A stretch of DNA of 50,196 bases. It comes from Candidatus Zipacnadia bacterium (lineage in GTDB: Bacteria > Armatimonadota > Zipacnadia > Zipacnadales > UBA5352). The notes beneath the pieces were generated by a model. It made no database searches and had not been told where the DNA came from. It saw only the letters and a list, made by a program, of their open reading frames with translations. Of this stretch, positions 1,465 through 50,196 are shown one piece after another (position 1 is the first letter of the stretch; each line of letters starts with the position of its first letter). The stretch is from the NCBI GenBank assembly GCA_029820045.1, contig JALGVE010000026.1, forward strand, positions 1-50,196, in the 5' to 3' direction. The translations under genes were made by a program, and so were the position numbers.

Positions 1465-4400
1465 ATGTCTGATAGCAAGCACTACCTGGGAATTGATGTC
1501 GGGTCCGTTAGCGTCAACTTCGTCGTGATGGACGAGCAGGGGGAGGTGCTCGAGGACAAGTACATCCGCCATCACGGGCGGCCGATTCAGACCGCCGGTC
1601 GCGCCCTGCGCGAAGCCGTCGAGAGGCTGGGCGAAGAGAACGTCATCGGCGTAGCGGCAACCGGCAATGCCGGCCGGCTGGTAGCCGAGATCATTAACGC
1701 CGAGTTTGTCAACGAGGTCGTGGCCCAAGCCACAGCCACGGGCACCTTCCATCCGCAGGCGCGCACCATCATCGAGATCGGCGGCGAGGACTCTAAGCTC
1801 ATCTTCCTGCGCCCACCGGCGGGCGAGGGCAAGGGGGGCGAGGTGGCTGACTTCGCTATGAACGCCATGTGCGCGGCGGGCACCGGCTCCTTCCTCGACC
1901 AGCAGGCAGTGCGCATGAACCTGTCCATCGAGGAGTTCGGCCACATGGCGCTGGAGAGCGAGACCCCGCCGCGCGTGGCGGGCCGCTGCTCGGTCTTCGC
2001 CAAGAGCGACATGATCCACCTCCAGCAGATGGCTACGCCTGTGAAGGACATCGTGGCGGGTCTCTGTTATGCGCTGGTGCGCAACTTTAAGAGCACGGTC
2101 GGCTCTGCCCGCGAGCTGGAACCGGTGGTATCCTTTCAGGGCGGGGTCGCGGCCAACCCGGCCATCGTGCGCGCCATCCGGGACGTGTACACACTCCACG
2201 ACGAGCAGCTCATTATCCCCGAGCACTTCGCCTCCATGGGCGCCATCGGCGCGGTGCTGCGAGCGATGGAGGACGGCTTCTCTCAGCCGGACCTGGCCCG
2301 TATTGCCGAGCTCGAGGGACACGTCAGCGCTGAGGTCCGCAAGCCACGTCTTGCGCCGCTAAAGTTGGAGAAGAGCGTCATCCATGAGTCCGAGATATAC
2401 CACCCCCAGGTCGCGCCCGGCGAGAAAGTCCCCGCGTATCTGGGCGTGGACGTCGGCTCCATCTCGACCAACCTCGTGGTCATGGACGAAGAGGGCCGGG
2501 TGCTGCATAAGGAGTACCTGATGACCGCCAGCCGCCCGCTCGAGGCGGTGGGCAAGGCCTTGCGGCTCACGGGGGAGGCGGTGGGCGACATCGTTGACGT
2601 GCGCAAGGTCTGCACGACCGGCTCAGGTCGGTATCTCACCGGCGACTTCATCGGGGCGGACGTGGTCAAGAACGAGATAACCGCCCAAGCCCGCGGCGCT
2701 ATCCACCTCGATCCAACCGTGGACACTATCTTCGAGATCGGCGGCCAGGACTCGAAATACATCAGCCTGGACAACGGTGTGGTCGTGGACTTCACCATGA
2801 ACAAGGTCTGTGCCGCCGGCACCGGCTCCTTCCTGGAGGAGCAGGCCGAGAAGCTGGGCATCTCCATCGAGGAGGAGTTCGCGGACCTGGCGCTGTCGGC
2901 GAAGGAGCCTCCTGACCTGGGCGAGCGCTGCACGGTCTTCATGGAGTCCGAGCTGCTCAAGCACCAGCAGGCCGGCGTGGAGACGCCGGACCTGGTGGCG
3001 GGTCTCGCCTACTCCATCGTCTACAACTACCTCAACCGCGTGGTAGAGAACCGCCGCGTGGGGGACAATATCTTCTTCCAGGGCGGCACGGCCTTCAACA
3101 AGGCCACCGTGGCGGCCTTCGAGATGGTCACCGGCAAGCGCATCACGGTGCCCCCGCACAACGAGAACACTGGCGCTATCGGCTGCGCGCTCATCGCACG
3201 CGAGCACGACGACGGTGAGGGCAGCAACTTCCGGGGCTTCAACCTGAGCGACATCAGTTACACTATCGAGACCTTCGAGTGCCAGGACTGCCCCAACCAC
3301 TGCGAGATTAACAAGGTGTCCATCGAGGGGCAGGAGCCCCTCTATTACGGCAGCCGCTGCGGCAAGTACGACGTGCGCCGCAAGCAGGAGGACTTCTCGC
3401 ACATCCCCGACCTGTTCCGCGAGCGCCAGCACATACTCGACACGGCTTACGAGCCAGCCGAGGAGCTGCCCGAGGACGCCCCGCGCGTCGGCCTCCCTCG
3501 CGCGCTGCTCTACTTCGAGCTTTACCCCTTCTGGAAGGCGTTCCTCAACGAGCTGGGCGCGCGCGTGGTCTTGTCCTCGCCGACCAACAAGCAGATTGTC
3601 CACGAGGGCGCCGAGCGTTCGGTGGCAGAGACCTGCTTCCCGCAGAAGGTCAATCTCGGCCACGTGCTCGACTTGCTGGAGAACAAGGAGATTGACTACC
3701 TCTTCCTGCCCAGTGTCATCAACCTGTCCTGCCCGGACGAGCGCATGACCGACAGCTTCGTCTGCCCTTACATCCAGAGCGTGCCCTATCACCTGAAGAG
3801 CGCGATCAACTTCGAGGACTATGACGTTGAGGTGCTGGAGCCTAAGATCTGGCTCGCTGAGGGCGAGAAGCACCGGGTGGACGCGCTGGCCGGGGTCGGC
3901 AAGAGGCTTGGCAAGAGCCGCCGCCAAGTCCGGCGCGCCCTACGCGTGGCCCAGGAAGCCCAGGACGAGTTCGAGCGCCGCATTGAGGAACGCGGGCGCG
4001 AGGTTCTCGAGAGCCTGCCCCCGGACCAGCGCGCTGTCGTCATCGTCAGCCGTTCCTACAACGGTTGCGATCCGGGCGCCAACCTTCAGATGCCGGAGAA
4101 GCTGCGCAAGATGGGCGTGCTCGCCATCCCCATGGATTTCCTGCCACTTGACGAGATCAGACTACCCACCGACTGGTTCAACATGTACTGGCGTTACGGC
4201 CAGAGGATCATGAGCGCGGGTGAGATCATTGCGCAGGACGACCGGCTGTTCGCGCTCTACCTGACCAACTTCGGTTGCGGGCCGGACTCGTTCATCATAC
4301 ACTTCTTCCGCGAGCGGATGGGTGCCAAGCCGGCGCTGATCATCGAGGTGGATGAACACTCCGCGGACGCCGGCATGATCACGCGCTGCGAGGCTTTCCT

Positions 4401-5700
4401 CGACTCGCTGGAGAGCACGCGGGGCCGCGCCTTCGCACCCGGTCGCTATCTACGGCCGCTTGGCATAGACGGGGATAGCCAGCGTATCATGCTCATCCCG
4501 AATATGAGTGACCATGCGTACGCGTTGGCCGCCGCCTTCGAGGCCTCCGGCATGCCCGCCGAGGTCCTGCCCGAGCCGGATCAGGAGACCCTTCTGTGGG
4601 GACGCCGCTACACCAGCGGCAAAGAGTGCTTCCCTGCCATCGTCACCACCGGCGACATGGTGAAGTTCACCAAGCGCCCCGAGTGGGACCCCGACAAGTA
4701 CGCCTTCTTCATGGGCGGCTCCGGCGGGCCCTGCCGCTTCGGCCAGTACAACACCCTTCAGCGCATGGTCCTGGACGACATCGGCTACGAGGACGTGCCT
4801 ATCTACGCCCCGCACCAGGGGGCGCAGTTCTTTGATGACCTCGGAATCGTGGGCCGCGATTTCCTGCGCAGGGGCTGGCGTGGCATGGTCGCGGTGGACC
4901 TGCTCTTCAAGGCATTGCTCGAAACCCGGCCCTACGAAGTCGAGCCAGGGGCCGCGGAAGCGGCCTACCAGGAGAGCTTGGACGAACTAATAGATACCAT
5001 CCGCTCCCGCGGCAACATCGTCGCCTCGCTGCAGGCGGCCCGCGTGCGCTTTGACAAGGTGGCGGTGGACCGGTCAGAGCCGAAGCCTGTCGTCGGCTTG
5101 GCCGGGGAGTTCTACATCCGCGCCAACCGCTTCAGCAACCAGGACCTGATCAGCAAGATAGAGGACTTGGGCGGTGAGGTGTGGATGTCGCCGGTCTTCG
5201 AGTGGTTCCTCTACCGCAACTTCCGCCGCGCGATGCGCGCCGGGCTGCAGTCCGACTACAAGCTGGTGGTCAAGAACGCCATCGAGGACTGGGTCATGAC
5301 CCGCGACGAACATGCCCTTACGAAGCCCTTCGAGGGCTACCTGCGCAACACGTACGAGCCGCCCACCCACGATGTGCTGAGGATGGCCGCGCCCTACGTG
5401 GACTCCAGCTTCGAGGGCGAGGCGATCATGACGGTGGGCAAGGCGGTGGACTTCATCGAGAAAGGTCTGCACGGCATCGTGGCGGTGATGCCCTTCACCT
5501 GCATGCCGGGGACGATCTCGTACGCCATCCTCAAGCGAACGCGTACCGACTACGGGGACTTCCCCTTCCTGAACATGGTCTACGACGGCGATGAGCAGGC
5601 AACGGATCAGACGCGGCTTGAAGCCTTCATGCACCAGGCCGCCGCGTTCATGAGGGAAAAGGGGGCGGTCGCGACAGAACCGGCCAGGGCGGGGCACTGA
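1465..5700 (+). CDS. Large 2-hydroxyacyl-CoA dehydratase activase-like ATPase (duplicated BadF/HgdC domains + DUF2229/HgdB-like)
   Basis: This 1411-residue protein contains two ASKHA ATPase domains. Each begins with a phosphate motif (GIDVGS near residue 9; GVDVGS near 326). Each keeps the two iron-sulfur-ligand Cys of activases: C136 and C175 in the first domain, C449 and C489 in the second. A cysteine cluster C606/C609/C613 precedes a DUF2229-like region and a C-terminal HgdB-like region. Small HgdC homologues use ATP to inject a high-energy electron into 2-hydroxyacyl-CoA dehydratases; the giant fused form is widespread in anaerobes but its substrate is generally unknown. No separate dehydratase subunit lies nearby. 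The ATG at 1465 is chosen over an upstream GTG at 1441 because GAGGT lies 10 bases ahead and the phosphate motif starts just after. It stands alone with its own promoter. Confidence 0.85.
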   Translation: MSDSKHYLGIDVGSVSVNFVVMDEQGEVLEDKYIRHHGRPIQTAGRALREAVERLGEENVIGVAATGNAGRLVAEIINAEFVNEVVAQATATGTFHPQARTIIEIGGEDSKLIFLRPPAGEGKGGEVADFAMNAMCAAGTGSFLDQQAVRMNLSIEEFGHMALESETPPRVAGRCSVFAKSDMIHLQQMATPVKDIVAGLCYALVRNFKSTVGSARELEPVVSFQGGVAANPAIVRAIRDVYTLHDEQLIIPEHFASMGAIGAVLRAMEDGFSQPDLARIAELEGHVSAEVRKPRLAPLKLEKSVIHESEIYHPQVAPGEKVPAYLGVDVGSISTNLVVMDEEGRVLHKEYLMTASRPLEAVGKALRLTGEAVGDIVDVRKVCTTGSGRYLTGDFIGADVVKNEITAQARGAIHLDPTVDTIFEIGGQDSKYISLDNGVVVDFTMNKVCAAGTGSFLEEQAEKLGISIEEEFADLALSAKEPPDLGERCTVFMESELLKHQQAGVETPDLVAGLAYSIVYNYLNRVVENRRVGDNIFFQGGTAFNKATVAAFEMVTGKRITVPPHNENTGAIGCALIAREHDDGEGSNFRGFNLSDISYTIETFECQDCPNHCEINKVSIEGQEPLYYGSRCGKYDVRRKQEDFSHIPDLFRERQHILDTAYEPAEELPEDAPRVGLPRALLYFELYPFWKAFLNELGARVVLSSPTNKQIVHEGAERSVAETCFPQKVNLGHVLDLLENKEIDYLFLPSVINLSCPDERMTDSFVCPYIQSVPYHLKSAINFEDYDVEVLEPKIWLAEGEKHRVDALAGVGKRLGKSRRQVRRALRVAQEAQDEFERRIEERGREVLESLPPDQRAVVIVSRSYNGCDPGANLQMPEKLRKMGVLAIPMDFLPLDEIRLPTDWFNMYWRYGQRIMSAGEIIAQDDRLFALYLTNFGCGPDSFIIHFFRERMGAKPALIIEVDEHSADAGMITRCEAFLDSLESTRGRAFAPGRYLRPLGIDGDSQRIMLIPNMSDHAYALAAAFEASGMPAEVLPEPDQETLLWGRRYTSGKECFPAIVTTGDMVKFTKRPEWDPDKYAFFMGGSGGPCRFGQYNTLQRMVLDDIGYEDVPIYAPHQGAQFFDDLGIVGRDFLRRGWRGMVAVDLLFKALLETRPYEVEPGAAEAAYQESLDELIDTIRSRGNIVASLQAARVRFDKVAVDRSEPKPVVGLAGEFYIRANRFSNQDLISKIEDLGGEVWMSPVFEWFLYRNFRRAMRAGLQSDYKLVVKNAIEDWVMTRDEHALTKPFEGYLRNTYEPPTHDVLRMAAPYVDSSFEGEAIMTVGKAVDFIEKGLHGIVAVMPFTCMPGTISYAILKRTRTDYGDFPFLNMVYDGDEQATDQTRLEAFMHQAAAFMREKGAVATEPARAGH

Positions 5701-18699: not shown

Positions 18700-18909
18700 C
18701 AGGAGCATCGGTTTTCTTACCGGTGGGGCCGACATTCTTGTCGGCCAGTTCCGCGCGGTCAGACAGCATAGCGCGACAGGAATGTCGCGCCTCCTGATAG
18801 GGCAGGCATCTGCGCTCAAGCGACATCGCCCGAAAGCCCCCAAATGCGGGCCTTTCTCAACCGGAGGAAAACCTGCATGCACGCCCCGCAGCCAAGACCG
18901 ATGCTCCTG
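18700..18909. mobile_element. MITE-like element E1 with 16-bp terminal inverted repeats and imperfect 9-bp target duplication
   Basis: The left end CAGGAGCATCGGTTTT (18700-18715) and right end AAGACCGATGCTCCTG (18894-18909) are inverted repeats with one mismatch. The flanks GCGCGGCGG (18691-18699) and GCGCGGCGC (18910-18918) agree at 8 of 9 bases, as an aged target duplication would. Inside are two perfect palindromes with 8-base stems, GGCCGACA/TGTCGGCC and GCGCGACA/TGTCGCGC. There is no transposase gene. The element occupies most of the gap between two minus-strand genes. Confidence 0.8.
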
Positions 18910-25274: not shown

Positions 25275-26519
25275 CTACTTGATGACCCCGAGGATGCGCA
25301 GTGCCTGGTCAAGATGCTGCTCGCAAGCGTCAAACTGCTGGGCGTTGAACTCGCGGCCAGCGGTGTGTAGCAGCTCGCGGATCGGCTTTGCGGCCATGGG
25401 GTCCGTAGACCTGAGTTCGTCGTAAGGCTTCTTCGCGAGCTCGAACTTCTTCTTTATGCGCCGCTTCTGCGGCACCTTGGCCCACGCTGGATCGCCTTCA
25501 ATGACGCCCTCGTAGAGTTCCTCCTCGCTGATGAACTCGGATATGTCGGCAGGCCCGCTAGTGGTAGTGGGCGTGGTGGCTGGGATCTCGACCGTCACCT
25601 CGCTCGTCGGCGTCACGGGAGGCTGCACAGGAGCGTAGCCGCCTTCCGAGCCCTCCACCTCGCCTGTCGGCTGCTCCACCGAGACTACGACGCTCTCGGC
25701 GCCAGCGCCCAGTTGGGCGAGATAGCTGAGCAGGTTGGCGGCCAGGGTATCGCGCTGAACCAGGTAGCTGTCCTCGCTCAGTGCGCGGACCTTGTTGAAG
25801 GTATCCACGATGAGCAGCTTGGCGCCCTCGGTTCGGACGAAGGTCGGCTGCTTCGCGGGTGCTGGCATCGTCACCGTCTCCGTACCCTCGGTGCCGACGT
25901 TAGTCGCGGCCTCAGTCACCGGCTCCTCGACAACCACCGCGGTCTCGGGTCGTCCAGTCACCGGCTCCTCGACAACCACCGCGGTCTCGGGTCGTCCGGT
26001 GACCGGCTCCTCGACAACCACCGTGCTCTCGGGCCGTCCGGTGACCGGCTCCTCGACTGCGACGGTGCTCTCGGGCCGTCCGGTGGCCGGCTCCTCAGCG
26101 ACTGGCGCGGTCACTACCGCTATCTCACTGACCGCCACCCTGGCGGCCTTCGGCAGTTGGGTCTTGAAGTTCTCGTACCATTCAGCGGCGAGAGTCGCAA
26201 GCTCCTTGCCGTGAGCCGCCGCGTCCCCCGGATAGACCGACATCACCTTCGTGCCGCCCACGCTGATTGTCCACAGCCCATCTCCTTGCTCGAGTGTGAC
26301 CTCGGCCTTCTCCATGTCCTGGCTCGCTACGACGCCGTTTATCGCCTTTTCGATGGCTACCCGGCGGTCAGCAACGGAGTCGTAGGGGCCCTTGGCGTAG
26401 ATGCGCGCGACGCGTTCTGCGCCTACCCAGATCTCCTCACCCTCTTGGGCGACGGCCACCCCAAGACCAAGTAGTAGCAGTACTCCTGCAAGCTGTCTCC
26501 AGGACTTCGCACGGGCCAT
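25275..26519 (-). CDS. Exported protein with tandem 14-residue repeats, function unknown
   Basis: This 414-residue protein has a signal peptide (WRQLAGVLLLLGLGVAVAQ, residues 6-24). A globular region of about 120 residues contains IWVGAERVARIYAKGPYDS. Four near-identical 14-residue repeats (EEPVTGRPESTVVV type) follow, then further low-complexity Thr/Val/Pro sequence. A Lys-rich C-terminal domain includes KRRIKKKFELAKKPYDELR. The ATG at 26519 is supported by AAGGAG 10 bases upstream; longer upstream frames run into the repeat at 26553. I do not recognise a family. The repeats look like a flexible linker in a cell-envelope protein. Confidence 0.7.
   Translation of the reverse strand: MARAKSWRQLAGVLLLLGLGVAVAQEGEEIWVGAERVARIYAKGPYDSVADRRVAIEKAINGVVASQDMEKAEVTLEQGDGLWTISVGGTKVMSVYPGDAAAHGKELATLAAEWYENFKTQLPKAARVAVSEIAVVTAPVAEEPATGRPESTVAVEEPVTGRPESTVVVEEPVTGRPETAVVVEEPVTGRPETAVVVEEPVTEAATNVGTEGTETVTMPAPAKQPTFVRTEGAKLLIVDTFNKVRALSEDSYLVQRDTLAANLLSYLAQLGAGAESVVVSVEQPTGEVEGSEGGYAPVQPPVTPTSEVTVEIPATTPTTTSGPADISEFISEEELYEGVIEGDPAWAKVPQKRRIKKKFELAKKPYDELRSTDPMAAKPIRELLHTAGREFNAQQFDACEQHLDQALRILGVIK
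25915..26100. repeat. 42-bp tandem repeats inside the exported-protein gene
   Basis: Four complete 42-base units start at 25915, 25957, 25999 and 26041, with a partial fifth from 26083. Units differ by a few bases, mostly silent or conservative. Because 42 is 14 codons, copy-number changes keep the frame, so this locus is likely to vary in length between strains. Confidence 0.85.
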
Positions 26520-28064: not shown

Positions 28065-28375
28065 GCAAGGGCAAGGCGCTCGGCCTCGAGTCTGCCGCGC
28101 GAGTCTTGATCCTGGGTCTGCTAGCGGCGCTGCCGGTGTTTGCGGGGCACTTGCAGATGTGGGAGACGCTGGCGGCAGCGGGGGCGGTGGCGTTGTGCGC
28201 GGTGCTCGCGCTGGCAGAGGCGAGTCGGGCTGGAAAGCCCGACCTACCCACGACTTCTACGGCGAGTCGGGCTGCAAAGCCCGACCTACACACGACTTCT
28301 ACGGCGAGTCGGGCTGCAAAGCCCGACCTACACACGACTTCTCCGAGGGGCGGGGGCGGCCCCTGCCACGAATGA
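28061..28375 (+). pseudogene. O-antigen ligase/polymerase-like protein, N-terminal fragment broken by repeat
   Basis: The fragment starts at a GTG overlapping the glycosyltransferase stop and reads SKGKALGLESAARVLILGLL, then a hydrophobic segment to CAVLALAEA. It enters a three-unit 42-bp palindromic repeat at 28219-28344 and stops at 28375. The continuing membrane protein lies in another frame from about 28398, so the repeat insertion (net length 3n+1) appears to have split the gene. The first roughly 55 residues look authentic; the rest is repeat-encoded. Confidence 0.65.
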
Positions 28376-47314: not shown

Positions 47315-47701
47315 GCATGCTCGCCAGGCGACCACGAAGAGAGGCTGTCCCGCCCCTTCCACGTTATTGCAGTGCCCTCGGAACCTTGCCCGCTCGCTCC
47401 CTGTCTAAAGCAACAATTGCAGCTTGCGGATGCGTGCAGGGGATGATAGTAGGAGTGACGTGCAGATGAGCCGTGCAGGCCAGATTGCCGAGTTGGCCCG
47501 GTCCCAATGGGCTGTAGTTGAGAGCCTCGCCGTGAAAGATCGCACCAAGCTTCACGCACTCGCGGGTCTGACGGCTCTGGCGCTGGCTCGGCCGTGCGAC
47601 CCGTGGGACCTGGTTGGCATCCCCTTGATAGTGGCGAGCCTGCTTCTGCGCACGTGGGCACTGGGCTGCGTCTCCAAGAATCGAGTGCTGTGCACATGGG
47701 G

Positions 47702-48170
47702 CAGGAGCATCGGTTTTAGAGTAAGTCGGCTTGTGAGTAGTAAGGCTGGGTATTGGCAGGGTCTGAGCGGGCGGGTACCGAGGCAGCCGTCAGGGCGCAG
47801 GTCTGCTAACAAAGCGAAGGTCTGCTAACAAAGCGATAGCGTACGGAGGGCAGGACTTCAGTCCTGCCGGGCGTTGCCGTTCTGAGGCGTGTCTGCCTGG
47901 CGGGGCTGAAGCCCCGCCCTCCGTACGGCGCTCACATTGCGTCTCGCGGGCCGGGCTGCCACCTTCGCCAAGGCTTCGCCGCCCAGGAAAGCCCGGCCCC
48001 TCCAACGGCTCCCGGCCCGCGTAGGTCGCGCTTCCTAGCCCGACTCTCAATGCGGCGCGCCACGGGTGCGCGCCCTACATACGACAGCGGCGCCTGCGGT
48101 CCCGCCGAGGCGCGATCGGCGCAATACCCCGGCGAGGCCGTCGACCGACAGGGCAAAACCGATGCTCCTG
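47702..48170. mobile_element. MITE-like element E2 with perfect 9-bp target duplication
   Basis: Termini are CAGGAGCATCGGTTTT (47702-47717) and its perfect inverse AAAACCGATGCTCCTG (48155-48170). CACATGGGG flanks both sides (47693-47701 and 48171-48179). Deleting the element and one flank copy (478 bases) rejoins the reading frame of the host gene. The interior holds a 19-base tandem duplication (47799-47836), a 98-base module bounded by inverted CGTACGGAGGGC (47840-47937) that contains two palindromes, and further palindromes to the right. The last 117 bases match E3 (49792-49908). No transposase is encoded, so mobilisation must be in trans. Confidence 0.92.
47840..47937. repeat. 98-bp palindromic module inside E2
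   Basis: CGTACGGAGGGC (from 47840) and its inverse GCCCTCCGTACG (to 47937) enclose two further hairpins, AGGACTTCAGTCCT and GGGGCTGAAGCCCC. Most of the same module recurs in inverted orientation near 50110-50196. It resembles the dispersed hairpins elsewhere in the window: paired palindromes with related cores. Confidence 0.8.
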
Positions 48171-48999
48171 CACATGGGGACCTTACCGTTACACGCGCAA
48201 CCCGCTCTATGTGGCGAACCTGATCGGGGCGATGGGTCTGTGTGTGGGCTAACCACTGGGTGGTCACTCTCCTGTGCGTGGGGGTCTTCGTCCTATGTTA
48301 CCCGCCTACCATGCGGTTCGAGGAGAAGAAGTTGGCCGGCATCTTCGGGGAGGAGTACACGCGATATTGCGCCGTGACACCGCGGTTTATTCCGCGCCTG
48401 CCTCGAACCTCGAATGGGCGCGGCAGGCGCTTTGGTCTCTCTCACGCGGTCGGAGAGGGGCTCGTCTCGCACGTGCTCCTTATCATCGTCCTGATAGGAG
48501 CGGTGGAGGTCAAGGAGGAGTACCTGGAGGCAGGGGGAGTGGTCACACCGCCCACGTATGGCATTCTGCCGCTTGGCATGATCAACGAGGCCAGCGCGGC
48601 GCAGCCTGGAGGCGATGAGGTGGGGACGCCCGGGCACAGCATGGAGGCTGGCCCAGGCTTGCTGACGGAATGGAAGCACGTGTGCCGGGGCGGTCAACCC
48701 GATCCGCTAGGGGCACATCCCTTCCTTCCGGCGGAGCGTCGGCTGTCGCTTCCCTTGGTGGCGAGAGCTGGGCCTGATCGTGCAGCTCGTGCCTCCAGGA
48801 CAGGTGCTGGGGCCTGCCTGTGTTATTGCGGTCTCGGCGCCCCTGGTGCGGTGCCTCTGTCGTGAGGTGGTTGCACACGCCCGAACTCCTCAGCAGGTCT
48901 TGGAGGTGCGCGGGCCTGATAGCACTCTTGGCCAGGCAAAGGGAATCTGGTCCCACGCCGCCCTCAAGAGCCGCGTTGTCGCACGGGGGATATCTGCAA

Positions 49000-49935
49000 A
49001 TGACGGCGCCCTACGAGAGTATGCACCGTCTGCGACTCGCGTGGGCCACGGTCAGTGCCCTCGCAGCGAAGCACCGCACGAAGCTTCACGTCGTCGCAGG
49101 CCTCAGCAGCCTTGCCCTGGCGCGTCCGAATGACTCGCAGGACCTGCTCTGTGCTGTGCTGATCCTGTTGGGTGTGGCCTTGAGAACCTGGGCGCTGGGA
49201 TGTATCTCCAAGAACGAGACCTTGTGCACGTGGGGACCTTACCGTTACACGCGCAATCCGCTTTATCTGGCGAATGGCCTGCTCGGGGCTGGTCTCTGCG
49301 TTCTCGTTAATCACTGGGTGGCTACCCTGGTGTGGGCGGCCGTCTTCACTCTGAGCTATGTCGCGACCGTGCGTGCGGAGGAGAAGCGACTTTCTGCGAC
49401 CTTCGGCCGGGAGTACGCGGAATACTGCGCTGTTACGCCACGTTTCGTCGGTAGACGCCGGCCGGGTTCGATGCGAGCCGGAGGCGGCTTCCGCCTCTCT
49501 CATGCGCTGCGGCAGGGCCTGCTTCGCCAGGGCCTGGCCTTCATGGCGCTCCTGGCAGTCGTGGAAGCCAAGGAGGCGTACCTGCAAGGACAGGGCGTGG
49601 TGACGCCGCCCACCTACGGCGTGCTGCCCCTCAGCGTGGCCCGTGCGCTAACCCCGATGCGAGATGGCGACTACGTGCGCCCGTCGAGGACAGGAGCATC
49701 GTTCTTGCGGGGGAGCCTGGGGCTGTGGTGTAGGGCGGGGACCTGTTTGTCCGCCGTAGCCTTGGCGAAGGGGGGCGCCCCGCCCGCCTGGGGCGCGCCA
49801 CGGGTGCGCGCCCTACATACGACAGCGGCGCCCGCGGCCCCACCAAGGCGCGATCGGCGGAATACCGCGGCGAGGCCGTGGAGCGACAGGGCAAAACCGA
49901 TGCTCCTGGGCCCCGGACAGGAGCATCGTTTTTAG
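49000..49935 (+). CDS. Isoprenylcysteine/phospholipid methyltransferase-like membrane protein, 3' end replaced by element sequence
   Basis: This is the paralogue of the pseudogene at 47466, intact through its core. It has KHRTKLHVVAGLSSLALARP near residue 24, LRTWALGCISKNETLCTWGP near 62, YRYTRNPLYLANG near 82, and EEKRLSATFGREYAEYCAVT near 127-146. These are AdoMet-dependent membrane methyltransferase hallmarks; the substrate is unknown. From residue 231 or so (RTG at 49691) the sequence is element E3 read through, and the stop at 49933-49935 (TAG) begins at the last base of the terminal repeat of E4. The start ATG has GGGGGA about 8 bases ahead. The native C-terminus is lost. Confidence 0.82.
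   Translation: MTAPYESMHRLRLAWATVSALAAKHRTKLHVVAGLSSLALARPNDSQDLLCAVLILLGVALRTWALGCISKNETLCTWGPYRYTRNPLYLANGLLGAGLCVLVNHWVATLVWAAVFTLSYVATVRAEEKRLSATFGREYAEYCAVTPRFVGRRRPGSMRAGGGFRLSHALRQGLLRQGLAFMALLAVVEAKEAYLQGQGVVTPPTYGVLPLSVARALTPMRDGDYVRPSRTGASFLRGSLGLWCRAGTCLSAVALAKGGAPPAWGAPRVRALHTTAAPAAPPRRDRRNTAARPWSDRAKPMLLGPGQEHRF
49691..49908. mobile_element. MITE-like element E3
   Basis: The left end CAGGAGCATCGTTCTT (49691-49706) and right end AAAACCGATGCTCCTG (49893-49908) are inverted repeats with two mismatches. The left 80 bases match the inverse of 1-73, and the right 117 bases match E2. The flanks CGTCGAGGA (49682-49690) and GGCCCCGGA (49909-49917) agree at only 5 of 9 bases, so a simple insertion is not proven. 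The element truncates the methyltransferase gene. E4 follows after exactly 9 bases. Confidence 0.8.
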
Positions 49936-50196
49936 CTGGCTGGTGGGTGTGAAGTCTTCTGAGTAGGGCCGGGAGCTGTGTCGCGCCGCATTGAGAGTCG
50001 GGCTAGGAAGCGCGACTTACGCGGGCCGGGAGCCGTTGGAGGGGCCGGGCTTTCCTGGCCGCCGAAGCCTTGGCGAAGGTGGCAGCCCGGCCCGCGACCC
50101 CCGAGACGCGATGGGAACGCCGTACGGAGGGCGGGGCTTCAGCCCCGCCAGGCAGAGACGCCTCAGAACGGCAACGCCCGGCAGGACTGAAGTCCT
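49918..50196. mobile_element. MITE-like element E4, cut by the window end
   Basis: It begins with CAGGAGCATCGTTTTT (49918-49933). From about 49982 to the window end it is the reverse complement of E2 interior 47852-48059 with a few substitutions and a small insertion. The right terminus lies outside the window. The 9 bases between E3 and E4 equal the target-duplication length of the family, consistent with insertion side by side. Confidence 0.75.

Follow-up and report, generated by a model that had tools for sequence, protein, structure and literature searches.

We found that a PEMT/ICMT-like methyltransferase gene in the window (the whole stretch of DNA analysed, 50,196 nucleotides long) is split by E2, a 469-bp chimeric MITE at positions 47702–48170, which an IS4-like transposase would have moved in trans by its 16-bp TIRs, a staggered cut duplicating the target CACATGGGG; we put the probability of this reading at about 0.93. 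In the mechanism that we propose, one end of a gamma-type MITE would have been replaced by a 120-bp alpha right arm at a 9-nt overlap, before movement. The transposase of an IS4-like insertion sequence (IS) with the same ends would then have acted in trans on the TIRs of E2, and the staggered cut at insertion, which would duplicate 9–10 bp of target, would have fallen on CACATGGGG within the methyltransferase gene, thereby splitting it. Mobilisation in trans, the cut-and-paste mechanism and the order of events are what we infer. The initial annotation had described the insertion itself; the identity of E2 as a MITE, its chimeric make-up and its likely IS4-like partner are additions to it.

Firstly, the ends of E2 are those of a transposed element. 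The perfect 16-bp TIR CAGGAGCATCGGTTTT stands at the left end (47702–47717, forward strand) and recurs on the reverse strand at the right end (48155–48170) as its exact reverse complement, and the element is bordered on both sides by the 9-bp target-site duplication CACATGGGG (47693–47701 and 48171–48179). An exact 9-bp direct repeat surrounded a random 469-bp stretch of the window in 10 of 200,000 draws (~5 in 100,000). Secondly, cutting out 478 bp (the 469 bp of E2 and one 9-bp copy) yields LCTWGPYRYTRNPLY, the same as in a paralogue 1.5 kb downstream (49000–49690, forward strand), and the pre-insertion site is predicted to read GTGCACATGGGGACC. The joined flanks give ...SKNRVLCTWGPYRYTRNPLYVANLIGAMGLCVG* against ...SKNETLCTWGPYRYTRNPLYLANGLLGAGLCVLVNHW in the paralogue, and the rejoined reading frame SKNRVLCTWGPYRYTRNPLY against SKNETLCTWGPYRYTRNPLY. 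Thirdly, E2 has 63 matches in its own genome, mostly partial, and its longest open reading frame (ORF) is 86 aa; no transposase gene lies within it, and the fused ORF (47424–47828) had no match in Pfam. With its TIRs, its target-site duplication, its many copies, its lack of a transposase gene and a partner IS that shares both the TIR and the duplication length, E2 is a MITE. The TIRs, the duplications and the paralogue match thus bear out what had been annotated at this locus, an insertion of E2 into a methyltransferase gene and a paralogue-like sequence once 478 bases are deleted; together with the genome-wide family they support a clean MITE insertion into a methyltransferase-like gene, a clean case of a commonplace type of event.

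The 5' part of the disrupted gene (47466–47701, forward strand) runs to the end of the left 9-bp duplication and aligns with the paralogue at 56% nucleotide identity over 78 codons; the 3' part lies at 48180–48619 on the same strand. In Pfam, the paralogue matches PEMT (PF04191, E=1.8e-8, above the cut-off) and, slightly under the cut-off, ICMT (PF04140). Removal of the element had been said to restore the frame, and it does so up to ~48,245; there, at GTGTGTGGGCTAACCAC, ~60 bp beyond the rejoined site, the frame is lost again (~48239–48253). This second frameshift is real, but its description as a 2-base deletion holds if the length equals that of the paralogue, and a one-base gain (GGG for GG) in a gene shorter by a codon fits equally well. 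The 'near-exact before/after picture' drawn in the initial annotation is overstated: outside a conserved stretch of 50 bp at the site, the DNA of the two genes is only 56–59% identical. Comparison with the paralogue does polarise the insertion, as had been claimed, and makes it a well-polarised example of gene disruption; the accompanying claim that it can be dated goes too far. dN/dS relative to the paralogue is ~0.21 for the 5' part and ~0.27 for the 3' part, and dS is saturated (1.5–2.2), so no insertion age is obtainable. An empty site was sought in 60 relatives, whose best homologues are 41–46% identical, with no locus close enough to compare. The disrupted gene itself probably matters little, since a paralogue with an open frame adjoins it. 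The frame of the paralogue is open to an alpha MITE of 218 bp at its 3' end (49691–49908, forward strand) and reads through this element to a stop at 49933–49935; either the tail of the protein is MITE-encoded or the gene is truncated.

E2 belongs to a multicopy family. Its TIR occurs exactly at 142 sites (76+66) in its own genome and, with at most one mismatch, at 212 (106+106), while a reversed control pattern occurs at none. From retrieved stretches covering most of the TIR copies listed for this genome we drew 39 full-length elements, 138–469 bp long, of which 24 have target duplications of 8–11 bp, mostly 9–10. Clustering of the 50 bp inside each TIR defined five subfamilies that have the TIR alone in common and differ in their interiors: alpha (ends E02-E01, 16 copies), beta (E03-E04, 7 copies), gamma (E09/E10-E05, 3 copies), delta (E07-E11, 2 copies) and epsilon (E06-E12, 2 copies). 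Chimeras that join the ends of two subfamilies account for five of the 39 elements, E2 included, and the ends of four further elements are variant or unclassified. This population is unusually abundant and mosaic, and as a combinatorial pool it is mildly unusual. The window also holds a beta MITE of 210 bp (18700–18909; duplications GCGCGGCGG/GCGCGGCGC), an alpha MITE truncated where the contig begins (1–73, reverse strand) and a gamma MITE truncated where it ends (49918–50196, forward strand), the last lying 9 bp from the alpha MITE 3' of the paralogue (49691–50196 for the pair). MITE copies thus form both ends of the window's contig (1–73; 50196), and a start ~98 bp inside a TIR is seen in many further contigs, which suggests that MITE repeats at contig ends would break up the assembly of the bin.

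E2 itself joins two of these subfamilies. Its gamma part (47702–48059; end type E05 and a gamma interior with palindromic modules) is 98–99% identical to other copies over the first 111–116 bp, and its alpha right arm (end type E01, 120 bp, 48051–48170) is 95–99% identical to other copies; on the reverse strand the element reads as the first 117–120 bp of the alpha right arm followed by gamma sequence. The two parts meet in a 9-nt overlap common to both parents, TGCGGCGCG (CGCGCCGCA on the other strand), at 48051–48059. Among the other chimeras, the overlap is 25 nt for alpha/epsilon and 9 nt for both delta/alpha and beta/alpha, and is less clean for alpha/gamma. Recognisable target duplications are kept in three of the five chimeras (E2, L054 and L055). 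This suggests that chimeras formed ahead of their movement, and the perfect duplications around E2 make that order the most likely one for E2 itself. It is rather improbable, if still worth weighing, that a gamma MITE already in place became chimeric when gene conversion by an alpha copy rewrote one of its ends: the duplication would likewise stay intact and the 95–99% identity of the arms to other copies would allow conversion tracts, but the boundaries would be forced into the 16-bp TIR and the 9-nt overlap, since the subfamilies share the TIR and short stretches only. We consider it unlikely that the outer insertion is real and the chimera an assembly artefact fusing two MITE copies. The genome has more than 140 near-identical TIR ends, many contigs, that of the window included, stop within MITEs, and the chimeric junction was met once, in one fragmented assembly; however, a 9-nt overlap is far below the usual k-mer of an assembler, so that chimeric reads would presumably be needed, the identical 9-bp duplication stands at both outer junctions, and two further chimeras (L054 and L055) also have target duplications. 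That E2 is not a transposable element but a structured RNA or a regulatory repeat of REP/BIME type is very improbable, despite a strong predicted fold (z = -5.75) and the palindromic modules of its interior, given the TIRs and 9–10-bp target duplications at many loci, the lack of any Rfam match at gathering thresholds and a TIR that is kept while interiors vary among subfamilies.

We tentatively raise the possibility, which we hold to be well short of probable, that a single lineage of IS4-like transposases maintains a combinatorial pool of MITEs with only the 16-bp TIR in common, and that their arms are recombined over and over at short overlaps (9 nt in E2, 9–25 nt in the other cleanly mapped chimeras), yielding new mobile chimeras such as E2. 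If true, such reshuffling of arms would resemble modular exchange, in bacteria and at the level of MITEs. How new MITEs form can be tested on these chimeras.

An IS with the same TIR is found in sister genera. This TIR occurs at 2–6 sites in each of four genomes from the same family or order; almost every site is at a contig end, which is what a collapsed longer IS would give, and long elements with identical TIRs are present in the sister genomes. When contig ends are paired, exact 10-bp duplications emerge in three cases (CCCGAGGGGG and TCGCCCGGGG in G014, CCGCCGCTGC in G007). A 243-bp IS end of G014 codes for a C-terminal peptide with a conserved counterpart in G007, and a search with this peptide led to a DDE transposase of 339 aa, 5'-truncated, in G008. 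In the genome of E2 itself, the edge of contig C77 carries a C-terminal transposase fragment (the last 40 residues), 67% identical over 39 aa, which adjoins a TIR with one mismatch. The G008 transposase matches PF01609 over the cut-off (E=1e-13), and its top NCBIfam match is NF033592 (IS4; E=5e-17), at 61.9 of 115 bits and hence under the curated cut-off for this 5'-truncated protein. IS4Sa elements have ends of the form CA------T, duplications of 8–10 bp, a length of 1150–1750 bp and a full YREK motif (PMC2266710). The partner resembles them in its 5'-CA ends, its ~10-bp duplications (both as set out in PMC2266710) and its DDE_Tnp_1 domain; the ends CAGGAGCAT fit CA------T, and the duplications of the family are 9–10 bp. 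It differs from them in its score under the family cut-off and in its YREK motif, which is incomplete, reading F..R...E......S/N (Y to F, K to S/N) in place of Y-(2)-R-(3)-E-(6)-K. As its ends and duplications are of the IS4Sa type but YREK is incomplete, we call the partner IS4-like, apparently nearest to IS4Sa and unconfirmed as a member of IS4. A kinship of the TIR with IS231, first suspected, was dropped, the IS4Sa-type ends fitting better (PMC2266710). The PF01609 matches in five genomes are other IS4/IS1634-like genes, with no TIR of E2 nearby. No complete autonomous copy was recovered in the own genome or the sister genomes, because the bins break off within repeats and completeness of the own genome is 60%; a DNA search from the G014 contig ends did not find the interior of the IS in the bin.

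Mobile insertion cassettes related to IS231 have IS4-family ends and ~10-bp duplications, are moved in trans and carry passenger genes, whereas no gene is apparent in E2. Bacterial MITEs are multicopy elements of ~30–300 bp with IS-like TIRs and without a transposase (PMC4133298). The E2 family is like them in being multicopy and non-coding, with an IS-shared TIR and target duplications, in and between genes; it is unlike them in the 469-bp length of E2 and in that one genome holds, with a single TIR, five subfamilies with unrelated interiors as well as recombinants. Tn3-derived TIMEs are short, non-autonomous, usually single-copy and form mosaic elements (PMC4133298); the E2 family is likewise short, non-autonomous and mosaic with IS/Tn-like ends, but its transposase would be of another superfamily and it is high in copy number.

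The source bin is an uncultured Armatimonadota MAG of 2.6 Mb, 60% complete, and the window is its contig 128. MAGs of Candidatus Zipacnadia, an Armatimonadota class (PMC10290634), also carry the IS-end sequence seen in the sister genomes, and we therefore place the window's family in this class. A literature search gave no report of MITEs in Armatimonadota; the present family and its probable transposase type are supplied for a little-known lineage. Single TIR matches in IMG/VR were taken as chance, with the exception of L135 (contig 3300033150_002614), which has a 404-bp gamma MITE at 4371–4774 (duplications ATGTACTGA/ACGTACTGA), ~160 bp upstream of a portal gene (2958–4208 of L135). L135 probably comes from the chromosome of a close relative and not from a phage.

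A phage-like cluster recurs in this class, with genes for large terminase, portal, head protease and capsid (L248, L249, L250, L251, L252 and L135) and, where the stretch reaches them, for head-tail adaptor and tail tube. Of 61 relatives, 29 have the portal, almost always as a single copy, its identity within the class is mostly 56–77% and tends to drop with kinship, and the gene order of the cluster is kept in all five cases examined. The cluster looks like a vertically inherited element, domesticated or gene-transfer-agent-like; a literature search gave no report of a gene-transfer-agent-like cluster in Armatimonadota. The window further contains 42-bp direct-repeat arrays at 28219–28344 and 25873–26124, one made of palindromic GTCGGGCTGNAAAGCCCGACCTAC units and the other of units starting GTCACCGGCTCCTCGAC. 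At 1837–2874, two 99-bp stretches that are 72% alike encode similar peptides, which suggests tandem related domains or genes, perhaps of activator-type ATPases.
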